NCBI GenBank assembly: GCA_024280895.1
Contig: JAJRPI010000060.1
Coordinates: 1-64,000 of the forward strand
Source of the DNA: Alphaproteobacteria bacterium
GTDB lineage: Bacteria > Pseudomonadota > Alphaproteobacteria > Rhizobiales > JAKIUO01
DNA: 64,000 nt
Direction of reading: 5' to 3'
Positions 10,860-19,057 of the stretch are shown here, piece by piece. The translations under genes and the position numbers were made by a program. The notes under the pieces are model-generated. The model was given only the letters and a program-made list of their open reading frames with translations, was not told the DNA's origin and made no database searches. Every line of letters begins with the position of its first letter. Positions within the stretch are counted from its first letter, which is position 1.

Positions 10860-13376
10860 TTATTCCGCTGCCACTTTTTTTTGTTTCTCATTTACTGAGC
10901 CCCCAGATTTACTCTTTGCAGATTCTTTCTGGGCGTCCTTATAGTGAGGAATAACCTCATCGGGGGTGAATTGGTCAACCGCAATCACTTTATTGATTAA
11001 TTCATCAAGCTCACGCAAATCATCAGCTTCGTGTGCTGTGACGACCTTTTCATCAACCGCCTGCTGAAACCAGTCGGAACCGTAATGGCGTTGTATCTTG
11101 CCACTCCGCACCGCTTTTTCGATCGCCTTTTCCGCACGCTCCAGCGACACGGCCAGTTTCAGCGTATATTCCAGTATACCGGTAATATCGGCTGGATTTT
11201 CGTTGATATAAATTTCGCTGGTCAAACGATCGCGGACATCGCCAGGCTTAACGGCCAATGCAGCGACTTTCTTGCCTAAACGATCGCTCGCTGGTTTGCT
11301 GCGAATGCCAAGCGGCAGAGCAACCAGTTTCATGATATAGGCGGCAGGACGAACCGGGAAATTGTCAATCACCCCCTGAATGGCGATTTCAAATCTATGC
11401 AGGGAATTTCTTGCACATAATTCAACAATCAATAGGTCCCGCGATAGCTCTCCATCATCCTCATAACGCTTCAAGATGGCGGATAGGAAATAGAGTTCCG
11501 ACAAAGCATCAGCCATGCGGCCGGTGATTTTCTGCTTTGTCTTGAGGCCACCTGCCAATATGCCCACTGTCAAATCGGCAACAAAAGCGAAGGAGCGCGA
11601 GGCTCGGCTTAATTGACGATACCATTGCTCAATTTCAGGGGCATGTCCCGGCCCCTTGGCAAATCTGGAACCCGAAAAATTGTGCAAAGTTGAGGCTGTC
11701 GCATTGGCCAGCGACCATCTGAGATGGGCATAAAAAGCGTCTTCGAAATCGTCAAAGCCGCGATCAGTATCTTTATTTTGAAGCGCTTCGGTTTCCTTGA
11801 ACAAATAAGGATGACAACGCAGGGCACCTTGCGAAAAAGTAATCAATGTGCGGGTCAAAATATTGGCACCTTCTACGGTGATGCCAACGGGGACGGATTG
11901 ATAGGCCGCTTGCAGATAGTTCGAGGGACCATCGCAAATGGCCCGCCCGCCGTGTATATCCATGGCGTCGGTGATGGACTGGCGCATACGTTCGGTCGAG
12001 CTATATTTCAACAGGGCGGAGATCACGGACGGCTTTTGCCCATCTCCCACCATCGCAGCCGTCATGGCTCTGGCGGCTTCAACCGCATAGGCATTTTCAA
12101 TGATACGGGTCAGCGGCTCTTCGACGCCTTCCATGACACTGATCGGTATGGAGAACTGGCGGCGCAAACGGGCATAGGCAGTCGTTGTGCGCAGCACAGA
12201 CTTGATCGCAGAGGTGCTGGTTGCTGGCAGTGAGATCGCTCGACCAACGGCCAGACATTCCATCAACATACCCCAGCCACGCCCGACCAAGTCACGACCA
12301 CCAATGATAAAGTCCATAGGGATAAACACATTATCCCCAGAGGTTGGACCATTGGGAAACAGATTACCCCCCGGCAAATGGCGATTGCCTATCACTACGC
12401 CCTTATGGCTCGCGGGTATCAATGCCAAAGTGATGCCGATATCTTCCTTGCCCAACTCCAGCAGATTATCGGGGTCGAGCAGATTGAATGCCAGACCGAG
12501 CAATGTGGCCTTGGGAGCCAGCGTAATATAGCGCTTGTTCCATGTGACGCGCATCCCAAGTGTTTTTTTGCCTTTGTAAGTCTCCTCACATACGATGCCA
12601 ATATCGCGCATAGAAGCCGCATCAGAACCAGCGTTCGGACTGGTAAGTGCAAAACACGGCACTTCCTGGCCTTTTGCCAAACGAGGCAGATAATATTCCT
12701 GCTGCTCGCTGGTGCCATATTTCTCCACCAGTTCGCCAGGTCCCAACGAATTGGGGACCATGCAGATAATCGCAATATCGGGACTTCTGGAAGCGACTTT
12801 ACCCAGGATCAGAGATTGCGCCTGCGCAGAAAAACCAAGTCCTCCATGTTTCTTGGAGATCAACATGCCCCAAAAACCGTTATCCTTGATAAAATCCCAA
12901 ACCTTTGGTGGCACATCACGGCGGTTGTGACGCATGTCCCAATCATTGGTCATCTCGCACAGCTCTTCGGTTGGCCCATCGAGAAAGTCACGCTCTTCGG
13001 ATGATAGCCGAATAGGAGGAATGGCTTTTAATTTCGCCCAGTCAGGGGTACCAGAGAACAGCTCCGCGTCCCAGCCAACAGTTCCAGCCGCCAAAGCTTC
13101 ACGTTCGGTATCCGAGATGGCAGGAAAAGTCCGGCGTAGGCTGTCAAATAATGGCCTGGCGACGAACTGACGACTTACAAATGGCACCGAGAGAGCCGCC
13201 AAAATCACCCCTGGAAGCAATAGCAAAACATAGGCGAAAGCGCCACCACCATAGAGCGTTAGAATAGCAAATGCGGCACAAAGAGCAAAAGCGGCCCAAG
13301 CCCACATCAGCACTTTATTAAGAGCCAGAACACAAAAAACGGCAACAATGATTCCAAATAGGAGAATAGCGGTCAT
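10860..13376 (-). CDS. fadE: FadE-type acyl-CoA dehydrogenase
   Basis: The first oxidation of fatty acyl-CoA, FAD-dependent. The 838-residue protein is close in size to E. coli FadE. Two to three hydrophobic segments occupy the first 60 residues, then come the acyl-CoA dehydrogenase domains (GLGFSAQAQSLI, CFALTSPNAGSDA, AICDGPSNYLQAAYQSVP, VEGANILTRTL) and a long C-terminal DUF1974-type region. AGGAGTTGAGAAG precedes the ATG. It is the first gene of the leftward fadE-fadJ-fadI operon. Confidence 0.93.
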   Translation of the reverse strand: MTAILLFGIIVAVFCVLALNKVLMWAWAAFALCAAFAILTLYGGGAFAYVLLLLPGVILAALSVPFVSRQFVARPLFDSLRRTFPAISDTEREALAAGTVGWDAELFSGTPDWAKLKAIPPIRLSSEERDFLDGPTEELCEMTNDWDMRHNRRDVPPKVWDFIKDNGFWGMLISKKHGGLGFSAQAQSLILGKVASRSPDIAIICMVPNSLGPGELVEKYGTSEQQEYYLPRLAKGQEVPCFALTSPNAGSDAASMRDIGIVCEETYKGKKTLGMRVTWNKRYITLAPKATLLGLAFNLLDPDNLLELGKEDIGITLALIPASHKGVVIGNRHLPGGNLFPNGPTSGDNVFIPMDFIIGGRDLVGRGWGMLMECLAVGRAISLPATSTSAIKSVLRTTTAYARLRRQFSIPISVMEGVEEPLTRIIENAYAVEAARAMTAAMVGDGQKPSVISALLKYSSTERMRQSITDAMDIHGGRAICDGPSNYLQAAYQSVPVGITVEGANILTRTLITFSQGALRCHPYLFKETEALQNKDTDRGFDDFEDAFYAHLRWSLANATASTLHNFSGSRFAKGPGHAPEIEQWYRQLSRASRSFAFVADLTVGILAGGLKTKQKITGRMADALSELYFLSAILKRYEDDGELSRDLLIVELCARNSLHRFEIAIQGVIDNFPVRPAAYIMKLVALPLGIRSKPASDRLGKKVAALAVKPGDVRDRLTSEIYINENPADITGILEYTLKLAVSLERAEKAIEKAVRSGKIQRHYGSDWFQQAVDEKVVTAHEADDLRELDELINKVIAVDQFTPDEVIPHYKDAQKESAKSKSGGSVNEKQKKVAAE

Positions 13377-13782: not shown

Positions 13783-14163
13783 ATGGGCTCACCCGATAAA
13801 ACTGATGGCGTCAAAGAAGACGTCGATGGCGAAAACGAGGGAGCCGAAATGATCAGTGGCATGAGATGTGCAGCCGACAAGGCCGCCGAATTGCTTCGCT
13901 GTATTGGTAGCCCCTATCGCCTGCTTATCCTTTGCCTTTTGATGGAAAAAGAGCAGACCGTCTCCGAGATCTGTGAAGCCATTGGTGCACGCCAGAGCTT
14001 AACCTCTCAGCATCTGACCCGTTTGCGGCTGGATGGTCTTGTTGAAGCTGAGCGCCGTGGTCACTATGTCATCTATTCTTTAACTGACACTGTCACCAAA
14101 GAGATCATCTCAACACTTCACAAGCATTTTTGTGCAGATGGTACAGAAAACAGCACCTGCTAA
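13783..14163 (+). CDS. sqrR: ArsR-family persulfide-sensing repressor (SqrR/BigR type)
   Basis: A 126-residue winged-helix repressor. The recognition-helix region is IGARQSLTSQHLTRLRLDGLV and the wing is RRGHYVIYSL. Cys51 (in LLILCLL) and Cys117 (in HKHFCADG) sit 66 residues apart, at the positions of the two cysteines that form the tetrasulfide switch in SqrR and BigR. Extra cysteines are at 29, 40, 64 and 126. It adjoins a sulfide dehydrogenase, thioredoxin and soxYZ, the expected targets. An acidic 22-residue N-terminal tail is unusual; a shorter start at Met23 is possible. Confidence 0.85.
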   Translation: MGSPDKTDGVKEDVDGENEGAEMISGMRCAADKAAELLRCIGSPYRLLILCLLMEKEQTVSEICEAIGARQSLTSQHLTRLRLDGLVEAERRGHYVIYSLTDTVTKEIISTLHKHFCADGTENSTC

Positions 14164-14291: not shown

Positions 14292-15584
14292 CTATCCCTT
14301 GGCGAACATATCACCAGTAATTTCATCATACCATTTCAGGGATTCCTTGAAATTGCTGGCTCTCACCCTCTTATCTTCCTTGACATCAGAAATGAATGAG
14401 GTTCGTTGCTCGACTAATTCCTTACCAGCCGTGTAGCTGGCCCCCGACTTGACGGCATTATTTGTGGATAACAGCGACCAGCAAGTATTGCGAAAGCGTG
14501 GGGGGAATAATTTACGACCGGTCAATTGGGCCGCAATCGCATTGGCGACGATCTGCGCTTGCGAATGAGCCGATGACGCTGATTTTGGCATATTGTTAGC
14601 CGTCGCCGCGTCTCCCAATACAAAAATATCCTGCACCAGTTTGGATGCAAAACTATCAGGCATGATCGGACACCAGTCGCCGTCCGCACACCCCGCTCTG
14701 GCAGCAATCACAGAGGCGCGCTGCGGGGGGATAATATTAACGACATCCGCTTTCATTTTATCACCATTTCTGGTGACAACACTCATTTCATTGGCAATGA
14801 CCTTTACGACCCCACCATGCTTGTCCCCCGGGATCCACTCCACATAGTCTTTATATTCCACACTCCAGACCTCTTCAAACAGCTCCATCTTGGGAAAAAG
14901 CGATTTGCTATCCAGTATGATCAATTTTGAGGCTGGCTTGTAATGCTTGAGGTAATGGGCAATCAACGTCGCGCGCTCATAAGGAGCCGAGGGGCATCGA
15001 TAGGGATTGCCTGGAGCCGAAATAAGGACAACGCCGCCATCCTTCATATCAAGTAACTGTCGGCGCAAATTCTGGGTTTGCGCTCCTGCACTCCAAGCGT
15101 GCGGCATGATTTTGGCGACATCTTCACTGTAGCCCTCAACGGCCTTGTAATTTATGTCTATGCCAGGAGAGAGCACCAGCTTGTCATATGAAATATCCCC
15201 ACCAGCTTTTAGCGACACCGTTTTCTTGTCAGAATCAATGTCATTGGCAGTATCATGGATAACCTTTACGCCTATTTTTTTCAAACCATCATAATTATGC
15301 TGGAGCGAGTTCAAAGAGCGGAAACCGCCGATAAAATGATTTGAAAAGAAACAGCTCGTATAGGTGCTATTGGGCTCAATCAGCGTCACATCTATTTTTT
15401 TGGCGTTTTTCTTGATGTGATGAGCAACGCTTGCCCCGCCTGCCCCGCCACCAACAATCACAACACGGCCAGACGCTTTTCCCTTGGCCATTGCGGACGA
15501 TGTCATACCCACACCACTGGTCAGTCCTGCAGCTACGACCGTTCCCAGTAATCGATTGAATGAACGCCTGTCTAAATCCACCAT
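14292..15584 (-). CDS. fccB: Flavocytochrome c sulfide dehydrogenase, flavoprotein subunit
   Basis: This periplasmic FAD protein oxidises sulfide to sulfur or polysulfide. The 430-residue precursor has a Tat-type signal (DRRSFNRLLG) and the FAD motif VVIVGGGAGGASVAHHI. It has the family redox cysteine context GNPYRCPSAPYER, the FAD motif DIFVLGDAA, and a C-terminal RNTCWSL that supplies the second cysteine. No FccA-type haem subunit with CXXCH is encoded beside it, which is odd for this enzyme. It is read leftward, after the thioredoxin gene. Confidence 0.92.
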   Translation of the reverse strand: MVDLDRRSFNRLLGTVVAAGLTSGVGMTSSAMAKGKASGRVVIVGGGAGGASVAHHIKKNAKKIDVTLIEPNSTYTSCFFSNHFIGGFRSLNSLQHNYDGLKKIGVKVIHDTANDIDSDKKTVSLKAGGDISYDKLVLSPGIDINYKAVEGYSEDVAKIMPHAWSAGAQTQNLRRQLLDMKDGGVVLISAPGNPYRCPSAPYERATLIAHYLKHYKPASKLIILDSKSLFPKMELFEEVWSVEYKDYVEWIPGDKHGGVVKVIANEMSVVTRNGDKMKADVVNIIPPQRASVIAARAGCADGDWCPIMPDSFASKLVQDIFVLGDAATANNMPKSASSAHSQAQIVANAIAAQLTGRKLFPPRFRNTCWSLLSTNNAVKSGASYTAGKELVEQRTSFISDVKEDKRVRASNFKESLKWYDEITGDMFAKG

Positions 15585-15747
15585 TGAGCCGTTTTTAAAG
15601 ACCTTCTTGTGTTATGAAAATGATCACAATCCATCACGATTGACGGTAAGAGGACCGGAGATTCGACTGAGAATTCAACAGACGCCATGTTAGGGTGAAA
15701 AAGGGGCGAATTAATGACTGAGCCAATGTGTAAGCTGGCCGCTCATT

Positions 15748-16197
15748 CTAGTTCAATGCGCCTTCAGCCCCCTTGTTGGCCTGGTCTTCATCGCGATATC
15801 CGTGCTTCTTCAACATGGGATTGAGCAAACCCCAGAAAAAATCATCGGATATATAGCCAGTCAAACGCCCAACCTCTTTACCATCTTTATACAGAACAAA
15901 GGTGGGAGTGAAAACAACTGGCCTGACATTGGGAACATCGTCGTCATGGTGAATATCAACTTTGCTCAATGGCGCAAATTTTCCTTCGCGTGTTTTGTCA
16001 TACGACACACCAATATTGGCATCCCATATTTCACAATACGGACAGGCATCTTGTTCAAACATAATAAGAGTGATCCCCTTTGACGGGACGGCTGAAGAGC
16101 CATCAGCAGCCTGTGACGGCGCACTCGAAAACAAAGCGAAACAGGCCATCATCCCCGCGATGAAGAACCCACCCACCAACATTCTTTGTCTATTCAT
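15748..16197 (-). CDS. Periplasmic thioredoxin-like protein (SoxS/SoxW type)
   Basis: A 149-residue protein with an N-terminal signal/anchor (VGGFFIAGMMACFALF) and a thioredoxin fold. The redox motif is CPYC in MFEQDACPYCEIWDA, and the cis-proline loop is VFTPTFVLYKDGKEVGRLTGY. Such proteins keep SoxY or other sulfur-carrier cysteines reduced in Sox systems. GGGCGGATAG precedes the ATG. It is probably co-transcribed with fccB, 163 bases downstream. Confidence 0.85.
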   Translation of the reverse strand: MNRQRMLVGGFFIAGMMACFALFSSAPSQAADGSSAVPSKGITLIMFEQDACPYCEIWDANIGVSYDKTREGKFAPLSKVDIHHDDDVPNVRPVVFTPTFVLYKDGKEVGRLTGYISDDFFWGLLNPMLKKHGYRDEDQANKGAEGALN

Positions 16198-16674
16198 CTA
16201 TCCGCCCTATTTGTCTTTGACTTTATTCCAGCCAATGTCATGCACTCCACCGTGCACAGACTGAAACCTCATCTTTGGCAGTCATACATCAAATAGTACA
16301 CTGCTCGCAAATCACATCACCGTGTAACAGTTTGCACTATATATCGAAGTTGTGATATAGAAGAAATAGAAACTGAAATGTTAGATTCATTTTCTACGAT
16401 TTTACCTTTCAATGTGAGATCCAATTAAAATATAATGTAGGCTAACTACATTTGAGAAGAACCTTGGCAAAGATCTAACGAAAATACGCGTAAGAGAGCC
16501 TATACACTCTTGTAATCAAAGGTGATCATAAAGGCATTGCCGTAACGTGTCTGCCTTGTTAGTATTTGTGGGACCAACAATAATAAACACTGGTCGTAAA
16601 ATTGTCTCATTGGTTTTATAGCTAGAGACAAGAAGAACTTGGCCATACCGAGCAAACCAGACAGAGAGGAACAG
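16198..16674. promoter_or_regulatory. Divergent control region of the thioredoxin-fccB and soxYZ units
   Basis: A gap of 477 bases without a supported gene. Its clearest signal is AATGTAGGCTAACTACATT at 16434-16452, a perfect palindrome with 7-base arms and a 5-base spacer. A weaker inverted repeat CTATAT..ATATAG lies near 16340. Both could bind the local ArsR-type regulator. Confidence 0.45.
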
Positions 16675-17148
16675 ATGAGCGATAAAATCCAAATTGAGGT
16701 CGTTAACCGACGCACCTTTATCCTTGGCGCATCAGCTGTGGCAGCACTTGCCACGCTAGCCCCAATAGGAAGCACACCAGCCAGTGCGAAAGCATGGGAA
16801 GACTTCATGAAAGAAGCCATCAAAGGCGCCACCCCGACAGAAGGCAAAGTCAAAATTGATCTGCCCGAAATTGCAGAGAACGGCAACACCGTTCCTTACA
16901 AAGTCAATGTGGAAAGCCCTATGAGCGATGCTGATCACGTAACGAATGTGCATGTCTATGCAACCGGCAATCCCGGACCACAGATCATCAGCGCTAAATT
17001 CACTCCCATGAGCGGTAAAGCTTATGTCAAAAGCCGCATGCGTCTTGCCAAAACGCAAGAAGTTGTTGCTGTTGCACAGATGAGCAACGGCAAGGTTTAC
17101 ATGGGCAAGACAACCGTAAAAGTCACCATCGGCGGCTGCGGCGGTTGA
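16675..17148 (+). CDS. soxY: Sulfur carrier subunit SoxY
   Basis: SoxY carries sulfur intermediates covalently on a C-terminal cysteine. The 157-residue precursor has a Tat-type signal (NRRTFILGASAVAALATLAP) and ends in the diagnostic swinging arm, here IGGCGG, with the cysteine intact. I chose the ATG at 16675 because AGAGAGGAACAG precedes it; a longer frame from 16639 lacks a site. soxZ follows 21 bases later. Confidence 0.95.
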   Translation: MSDKIQIEVVNRRTFILGASAVAALATLAPIGSTPASAKAWEDFMKEAIKGATPTEGKVKIDLPEIAENGNTVPYKVNVESPMSDADHVTNVHVYATGNPGPQIISAKFTPMSGKAYVKSRMRLAKTQEVVAVAQMSNGKVYMGKTTVKVTIGGCGG

Positions 17149-17169
17149 TCAATAAAGGGAGAATTTAGA

Positions 17170-17493
17170 ATGGCGAAACCTCGCATCAAAGTGCCTAAAA
17201 AGGCCAAAGTCGGCGATATTGTTGAAATTAAATCAATGATCAGCCACAAAATGGAAACCGGCCTTCGTAAAAATAAGAAGACTGGTGAAATGATCCCACG
17301 CAAGATTATTAATAATCTTGCTGTGACTTTCGCTGGCAAGGAAGTGTTCAGCACAATCCTTTATCCATCTGTATCAGCTAATCCATATGTTGCTTTCAAC
17401 TTTAAAGTACCAGGATCTGGTGACATGGTCTTTACTTGGACAGAAGACGGTGGCAAAACCACCACTGCCAAAAAGACTATCACAGCCGCTTAA
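17170..17493 (+). CDS. soxZ: Sulfur carrier complex subunit SoxZ
   Basis: The 107-residue partner of SoxY has no signal peptide and is exported with SoxY as a heterodimer. Typical SoxZ features are MAKPRIKVPKKAKVGDIVEI, IKSMISHKMETGLRK near residue 25 and the C-terminal FTWTEDGGKTTTAKKTI. AAAGGGAG precedes the ATG. soxXA, soxB and soxCD are not in this window, so the carrier is probably used by another sulfur donor or acceptor such as FccB. Confidence 0.95.
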   Translation: MAKPRIKVPKKAKVGDIVEIKSMISHKMETGLRKNKKTGEMIPRKIINNLAVTFAGKEVFSTILYPSVSANPYVAFNFKVPGSGDMVFTWTEDGGKTTTAKKTITAA

Positions 17494-17569: not shown

Positions 17570-17681
17570 ATGCCCACACTCTATCATATTGGAGAATTTC
17601 TTGCCGGTCAGCACATCGGGCGCTAAAGGTAGGAATACGAACAATTCCAATAAAAAGACATTCTCATGGAAGGGAAAATAT

Positions 17682-17933
17682 ATGTCAGAAAAACCAACCA
17701 TCGCGCAGGCCAGCCCATTTAAAGTAGAGCTCGAAGAAGGCAAAAGATACGCATGGTGCCGATGCGGCCTGTCGAAGAACCAACCATACTGCGATGGCGC
17801 TCACAAAGACACGAGCTTTACGCCCATGATGTATGTCGCCGAAAAATCCGGCCCTCACTATATGTGCGGATGCAAGCAAACCAAAAATGAGCCTATGTGT
17901 GATGGCACCCATAATAAGCTTGACGAAAGCTGA
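17682..17933 (+). CDS. CDGSH iron-sulfur domain protein with two motifs
   Basis: An 83-residue protein with two CDGSH-type [2Fe-2S] sites: CRCGLSKNQPYCDGAH near residues 26-41 and CGCKQTKNEPMCDGTH near 63-78. Each has the three-Cys/one-His ligand set. The family is implicated in redox or Fe-S handling, and no specific role is assigned. GGAAGGGAAAATAT precedes the ATG; the longer upstream frame is non-conserved. It follows the soxYZ terminator and so has its own promoter. Confidence 0.9.
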   Translation: MSEKPTIAQASPFKVELEEGKRYAWCRCGLSKNQPYCDGAHKDTSFTPMMYVAEKSGPHYMCGCKQTKNEPMCDGTHNKLDES

Positions 17934-17960: not shown

Positions 17961-19057
17961 ATGGAATATTTTGCGCAACAGATGATCAATGGCGTAACGC
18001 TAGGCTCAGTCTATGGCCTGATCGCTATTGGCTACACCATGGTCTATGGCATTATCGGCATGATCAACTTTGCTCATGGTGATATTTTTATGGTCAGTTC
18101 CTTTATTTCACTGATCACATTCATCGCTCTTTTGTCGTTTGGGATCACCTGGATTCCCCTTGTGCTGATCGTTTCCATGGCCATGACAGCTGTCGATGGC
18201 TGGACCGTGGAGCGCCTGGCTTATCGGCCATTGCGGGCAAGTTTTCGTCTCGCGCCCCTTATCACAGCTATCGGCATGTCGATTGTGCTGCAAAATTATG
18301 TGCAGATTGTCCAAGGGGCGCGTGTAAAAACGCTGCCACCCATAATCTAGGGCAGCTATATACTCATGGAAAAAGACGGATTCACCGTCCAGATTTCCAA
18401 TATGCAGATCGTCATCATCATCACGACAGTCTTTTTGATGTTGGCGTTTGCAGCGCTGATTTCATAAATCAGTCTGGGGTGATGCCAGCGCGCCTGCGAA
18501 CAAGACCGAACGATGGCGGCACTGCTCGGCAATAATGTTGACCGAACCATCTCGCTGACTTTTATCATGGGGACGTCTTTGGCTTCTGTCGCCAGTCTCA
18601 TGTATCTGCTTTATTATGGCGTCATCGATTTTTACATCGGCTTTGTCGTCGGCATCAAGGCGTTCACGGCAGCCGCTCTGGGGGGTATCGGCTCGCTCCC
18701 CGGTGCTATGCTGGGTGGCCTGATCATCCGGCTGGTTGAAACATTCTGGTCCGGCGGCGAACAACAAATGCTGGCCATTGGTCGCGCTCTCATGGGGCGG
18801 CCAAAACTCTTATTGCTCGACAAACCCTCGCTTGGCCTTGCGCCGCTCATCGTCAAGCAGATCTTTGCCATCCTAAAGAATCTCAACAAGTAATTGGGGC
18901 TGACCATTTTTCTTGTAGAGCAAAACGCCCACCATGCGCTCAACCTTGCTGATCGCGCTTATGTCATGGTCAATGGCCGCATTCCCATGAGCGGTTCGGA
19001 CAAAGAATTTTGCAAAAAGAAGAGATCCGCACCGCCTAACTTGAGGGTGGGCATTAG
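17961..19057 (+). pseudogene. livH-livF fusion pseudogene, remnant of a branched-chain amino acid ABC transporter operon
   Basis: The first part is a LivH-type permease ([67 protein letters not shown]). At about 18750 it runs straight into the end of a LivF ATPase, from the signature [14 protein letters not shown] through [14 protein letters not shown] to VEQNAHHALNLADRAYVM. The whole lies in one frame broken by stops at 18348, 18465, 18480 and 18891. A frameshift near 19010 and a further stop at 19037 precede the natural LivF end LEGGH-stop. livM and livG are gone. The gene cannot give a working transporter. Confidence 0.92.

Follow-up and report, generated by a model that had tools for sequence, protein, structure and literature searches.

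Genes at the fccB-soxYZ locus

The stretch of DNA analyzed here, referred to as the window, comprises 64,000 nucleotides and contains a gene for an FCSD flavoprotein beside genes for a thioredoxin and the SoxYZ sulfur carrier. The relevant features are the following.

10860-13376, minus strand: long protein that we take, from its sequence type, to be an acyl-CoA dehydrogenase (ACAD); conserved neighbor of the fccB-soxYZ block
13783-14163, plus strand: ArsR/SmtB-family regulator, SoxR/SqrR/BigR-like, 126 amino acids, recognized by HTH_metalloreg and by its cysteine spacing
14292-15584, minus strand: fccB, FCSD flavoprotein of 430 amino acids with a Tat-type signal and no adjoining cytochrome gene, recognized by Pfam and 1fcd
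15748-16197, minus strand: soxS-like gene for a periplasmic thioredoxin of 149 amino acids with a CPYC motif; best solved relative 3d4t/3dml
16198-16638, no strand assigned: divergent promoter region of soxS and soxY with the inverted repeat AATGTAGGCTAACTACATT, a candidate operator
16639-17148 (likely start 16675), plus strand: soxY, carrier subunit with a Tat-type signal and a C-terminal GGCGG, recognized by NCBIfam
17170-17493, plus strand: soxZ, carrier subunit, recognized by NCBIfam SoxZ_true
17589-17933 (likely start 17682), plus strand: CDGSH iron-sulfur protein, kept beside soxYZ in part of the relatives

A preliminary description of the sequence had recognized an FCSD flavoprotein with its redox cysteines, a periplasmic thioredoxin and the SoxYZ carrier, and the family comparisons bore out all three assignments. 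The fccB gene product matched the Pfam families FCSD_central (E 2.2e-43; 147.5 bits against a cut-off of 27) and FCSD-flav_bind (E 4.7e-13; 49.7 bits against a cut-off of 26), had 1fcd as its best solved relative (E 2.6e-104), and carries Cys197 and Cys368 in alignment with both redox cysteines of 1fcd. The FccB of one congener (G002, locus L041) has a serine at the position of Cys368, the second redox cysteine, which is either a sequence error or evidence against strict conservation of the FccB disulfide within the genus. The best solved relative of the thioredoxin was 3d4t/3dml (9.2e-20), which we take to be SoxS from Paracoccus, with ordinary thioredoxins far behind; the gene was assigned to soxS as encoding a periplasmic CxxC thioredoxin near soxYZ with this best match and the CPYC motif. 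SoxY and SoxZ passed the NCBIfam equivalogs SoxY_true_GGCGG (143.6 against a cut-off of 125) and SoxZ_true (104.2 against a cut-off of 76), respectively. The listed TTG start of SoxY at 16639 was assigned mechanically, and translation probably begins at an ATG further in, at 16675 (MSDKIQIEVVNRRTF, which looks like a Tat-type signal).

The regulator and the CDGSH protein, overlooked in the preliminary description, also belong to the conserved block. The regulator scored 74 bits with HTH_metalloreg (cut-off 55) and failed the NCBIfam BigR equivalog (64.7 against a cut-off of 155). Its Cys51 and Cys117 lie 66 residues apart, a spacing equal to that of Cys50 and Cys116 in the SoxR of Hyphomicrobium denitrificans as published (PMC10451225). 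The inverted repeat between soxS and soxY is identical in G002 and similar in the congeners G001 and G004. A comparison of seven upstream regions for a shared operator yielded no motif that the other sulfur genes have in common; of the seven, only the soxS-soxY region gave a repeat that recurred in congeners.

The window lacks other Sox enzymes and FccA, as had been described: tblastn with Sox and Fcc queries gave no match in the 64 kb for SoxA, SoxB, SoxX or FccA, and CxxCH was absent from the non-overlapping open reading frames of at least 60 amino acids. The window fccB thus has no adjoining gene for the cytochrome subunit of an FccAB holoenzyme. Beyond the CDGSH gene, a branched-chain amino acid transporter operon (17961-18893) looks cut near 18750; the window is continuous with the corresponding locus of G001 (L040) up to 18753, and the match resumes about 2.7 kb further in L040. 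The break, which leaves a livH piece followed by a livF end, is either a real deletion or an assembly error.

Sulfur genes elsewhere in the genome

The genome that contains the window (G000; 3.36 Mb, 96 contigs, 98.4% complete) encodes SoxB (C57:5413-7263; 685.7 bits joined, cut-off 550) and SoxA (C57:11157-11780; 243.5, cut-off 110) on contig C57, where soxX adjoins soxA (63, cut-off 61) and a two-domain thioredoxin-like protein sits between the sox genes. The SoxY of the window is the only one in the genome, and the SoxC model had no match in it. With SoxX, SoxA, SoxB and SoxYZ present and SoxCD absent by the SoxC model, the gene set is that of a truncated Sox system. Three FccB proteins are encoded: that of the window, one on C26 behind a two-heme cytochrome fccA, and one on C64 behind a one-heme cytochrome fccA. 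The C26 fccAB genes are adjoined by genes that, by eye, encode a small DsrE-like protein and a pair of sensor kinase and response regulator (L009, 3337-6355).

At their ends, contigs C9 and C56 each carry the start of a dsrA-like gene (profile positions 1-42). A dsrA profile search did not find a full dsrA in the assembly, and full dsrA genes over the cut-off were detected in three of the four congeners (G001, G002, and G003). Reverse Dsr would probably take the sulfane sulfur, judging from the broken dsrA and the genes of the congeners. The first 141 bases of C9 and C56 (L130 and L131), which encode the dsrA-like start, are identical, possibly reflecting an assembly break, two copies or strain variants. 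Contig C56 also encodes a second SoxS-like thioredoxin (L087, 4510-4914), whose best solved relative is 3d4t (E 1.5e-13), in the neighborhood of the dsrA start and of a siroheme synthase-like gene. The sHdr system was considered as the sulfur sink and set aside: nine CCG (HdrB-type) matches on five contigs gave no sHdr or DsrK pattern in their neighboring open reading frames, inspected by eye, and the matches themselves resembled glycolate-oxidase or lactate-utilization subunits (by eye, from the starts of the open reading frames).

A probable truncated Sox system at two loci

Very probably, the organism has a truncated Sox system (XA, B, YZ) divided between two loci, of which the window contains the carrier half; this reading joins the observed genes, their places and their family matches to the sulfur fluxes proposed here. 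SoxXA and SoxB encoded on C57 would load thiosulfate sulfur onto the window SoxYZ with release of sulfate and, because no SoxCD was found, the sulfane sulfur would enter the cytoplasm, with reverse Dsr as its probable destination. Sulfide would be oxidized by the two FccAB pairs plus the window FccB, whose electrons may go to a cytochrome from another locus, with the C64 FccA or another soluble cytochrome c as candidates. By analogy with named homologs, SoxS would keep SoxYZ reduced and the SoxR-like repressor would respond to sulfane sulfur; in H. denitrificans, SoxS guards SoxYZ against false disulfides and SoxR is a sensor of sulfane sulfur (PMC10451225).

The congener G003 has soxYZ directly adjoining soxXAB (L042), so the split of the locus varies within the genus. 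A separation of soxB-soxAX from soxYZ has been published for Thiohalomonadales (PMC11237559). The organism thus appears to be a fairly ordinary member of the truncated Sox systems for which no new pathway is needed. More unusual is that close relatives keep this small gene block in genomes in which the remaining pathway was not detected.

Cytochrome genes beside fccB in relatives

Among 61 genomes sampled from the organism itself, its genus and its order, 39 had SoxY, 33 had FccB-type matches (E 1e-30) and 14 had dsrA (E 1e-40); a scan of named records gave 80 loci. The window FccB fell in a 17-row clade of a 49-row tree (support 100/99). By the rule used to label the rows, this clade has no co-directional small cytochrome gene and an opposite-strand one in three rows; on closer look L053, of the same clade, has a co-directional FccA-like gene overlooked by the rule. 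A 135-row tree, from which L141 and L204 (internal stops) and L132 (a duplicate of G001) were omitted, placed the window FccB in a 30-row clade (SH-aLRT 99). Within it FccA-like genes are co-directional with fccB at L053, L133, and L146 and lie on the opposite strand at L061, L096, L098, L134, L135, and L139. The cytochrome is therefore missing beside many clade members, not all, and in the window genus it was likely lost secondarily from beside fccB.

These neighborhoods bear on an alternative to which we give nearly even chances, namely that the window FccB is an ordinary FCSD flavoprotein, its cytochrome gene having been lost or relocated, and that fccB adjoins soxYZ only because of shared regulation. 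The FccA-like genes at L053, L061, L096, L098, L133, L134, L135, and L139 are small one-heme genes next to fccB and speak for this alternative, and the organism retains a one-heme FccA on C64 that is 57% identical to the FccA of L061 over 74 residues. Shared regulation with Sox would not, however, require fccB to stay with soxYZ in genomes in which neither SoxA nor SoxB was found, and such genomes occur among the relatives.

The fccB-soxYZ block, SoxB and the SoxY tail

The block consists of the acyl-CoA dehydrogenase, fccB and soxYZ, often with soxS and the CDGSH gene, and is kept in several families. By tblastn, fccB adjoins soxYZ in the window genus, in G013, G019, G028, G049, G005, and G056, and at the named loci L137, L139, L142, L143, L157, L168, L187, and L194, usually in divergent orientation. 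The acyl-CoA dehydrogenase adjoins fccB at most block loci, soxS and CDGSH at part of them. A literature search for the block found no paper.

SoxB matches were obtained in 13 of the 24 genomes searched, including eight of the 18 that have fccB beside soxYZ (G000, G001, G002, G013, G019, G028, G049, and G067), where the match in G019 is a piece below the cut-off at a contig end. SoxB was not found in the other ten (G004, G005, G056, G061-G066, and G068). SoxA was searched for in 15 genomes; profile searches did not find it over the cut-off in nine of the ten SoxB-less block genomes, G062 being the one that has it, and G064, G065, and G068 gave weak matches below the cut-off. Hyphomicrobium facile DSM 1565 (G064, L143) thus has fccB-soxYZ, no detected SoxB and no SoxA above the cut-off. 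These absences come from profile searches, and most of the genomes are drafts, which can mislead: G004, of the window genus, had no match to SoxY, SoxA or SoxB and no strong one to dsrA, although its soxY is present, beginning at a contig end (L094).

The C-terminal tail of SoxY varied with the presence of SoxB. Block SoxY proteins end in GGCGG in seven of eight SoxB-positive genomes compared with one of the nine SoxB-less genomes whose tail can be read; the other eight end in GGCGI, GGCGNE, GGCQS, GGCSS, or GGCGAE. In G067, the SoxB-positive genome that departs from this pattern, soxB is adjoined by a second SoxYZ, which ends in GGCGG (L223). IGGC with its cysteine is retained in all 17 block SoxY proteins with a readable tail, and every readable SoxY that shares a locus with SoxB ends in GGCGG (28 of 28 among those listed; L054 is a fragment). 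The association of tail and SoxB has a Fisher p of 0.003, which overstates independence because most SoxB-less genomes belong to a single lineage. In a SoxY tree built without the tails, and without rows shorter than 100 amino acids or lacking GGC near the end, the altered-tail block proteins lay outside the SoxY proteins of Sox clusters and the window SoxY grouped with the SoxB-linked L042 and L044; the tree is midpoint-rooted and its long row L071 pulls at the root.

These patterns hint that SoxYZ may be loaded independently of SoxXAB in SoxB-less relatives, largely one lineage. The link between FccB and SoxYZ made in the preliminary description keeps indirect support in this way, with a pair found in several families that persists where SoxB, and mostly SoxA, was not detected. 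As a reading of the window, a SoxXAB-independent pair in which sulfane sulfur from sulfide would pass to the SoxY cysteine and on to cytoplasmic oxidation, in parallel with SoxXAB, is plausible, although we lean somewhat against it. The recurrent adjacency of the two genes, the lack of SoxB matches in ten of 18 genomes (nine of these ten lacking an above-cut-off SoxA) and the altered tails in eight of nine SoxB-less against one of eight SoxB-positive genomes argue for it; on the other side, a single lineage accounts for most SoxB-less genomes, most of the relatives are drafts, and the window SoxY has a canonical tail and groups with Sox-cluster proteins. More tentative still, and in our view rather doubtful, is the broader proposal that the block is a SoxXAB-independent sulfide module in which FccB would load SoxY, the tail having drifted from GGCGG in lineages from which SoxA and SoxB were lost or always absent, and that the window SoxYZ would serve both inputs.

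The reading in the preliminary description of a reduced, SoxXAB-free and cytochrome-free pathway in this organism is true of the 64 kb window alone and is very improbable for the organism, being ruled out by soxX, soxA, and soxB on C57 and fccA on C26 and C64 unless the bin is chimeric. The genome search that it had proposed found soxXA, soxB and fccA, most of what it had named as counting against it, and did not find soxC; since SoxX, SoxA, SoxB and two fccA genes are encoded elsewhere, the pathway here is not SoxXAB-free, and a false gap in SoxXAB and FccA is removed for this genome.

For the organism itself we retain the reading of a truncated Sox system at two loci, and the stand-alone fccB-soxYZ block of its relatives is the part worth following. 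To our knowledge, the route of sulfide-derived sulfur from periplasmic FccB to the cytoplasm has not been settled, and strains of the H. facile DSM 1565 type suit the question of whether SoxYZ takes sulfur straight from FccB.

Comparison with known sulfur-oxidizing systems

The window FccB shares its family with the flavocytochrome c sulfide dehydrogenase of 1fcd and differs in that the window has no FccA gene. Paracoccus-type SoxF (soxEF) is likewise an FccB-family flavoprotein linked to Sox genes. Three loci (L048, L051, and L125) are, in our reading of their sequences, candidate SoxF loci; unlike the window they have a co-directional cytochrome gene, and their FccB proteins are about 30% identical to the window FccB and branch outside its clade. 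An assignment of the window FccB as SoxF of this type was not adopted, since the candidate SoxF loci branch apart in the FccB tree.

The branched pathway of the Allochromatium vinosum type consists of FccAB, SoxXAB-YZ and reverse Dsr. The window organism resembles it in having FccAB, SoxXAB and SoxYZ without SoxC, together with dsrA in its genus, and differs by an extra FccB that has no neighboring cytochrome and lies beside soxS and soxYZ.

H. denitrificans, also an Alphaproteobacterium, has SoxXA, SoxB, SoxYZ, a SoxR-type repressor and SoxS and no SoxCD, as does the window organism, and its truncated Sox system works with sHdr-LbpA2 (PMC10451225, PMC11582611). Neither "fccB" nor "flavocytochrome" occurs in PMC10451225. 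The sox genes of H. denitrificans share one region with shdr, whereas those of the window organism lie on two contigs, in a genome that has a dsrA start and an FccB beside soxS.
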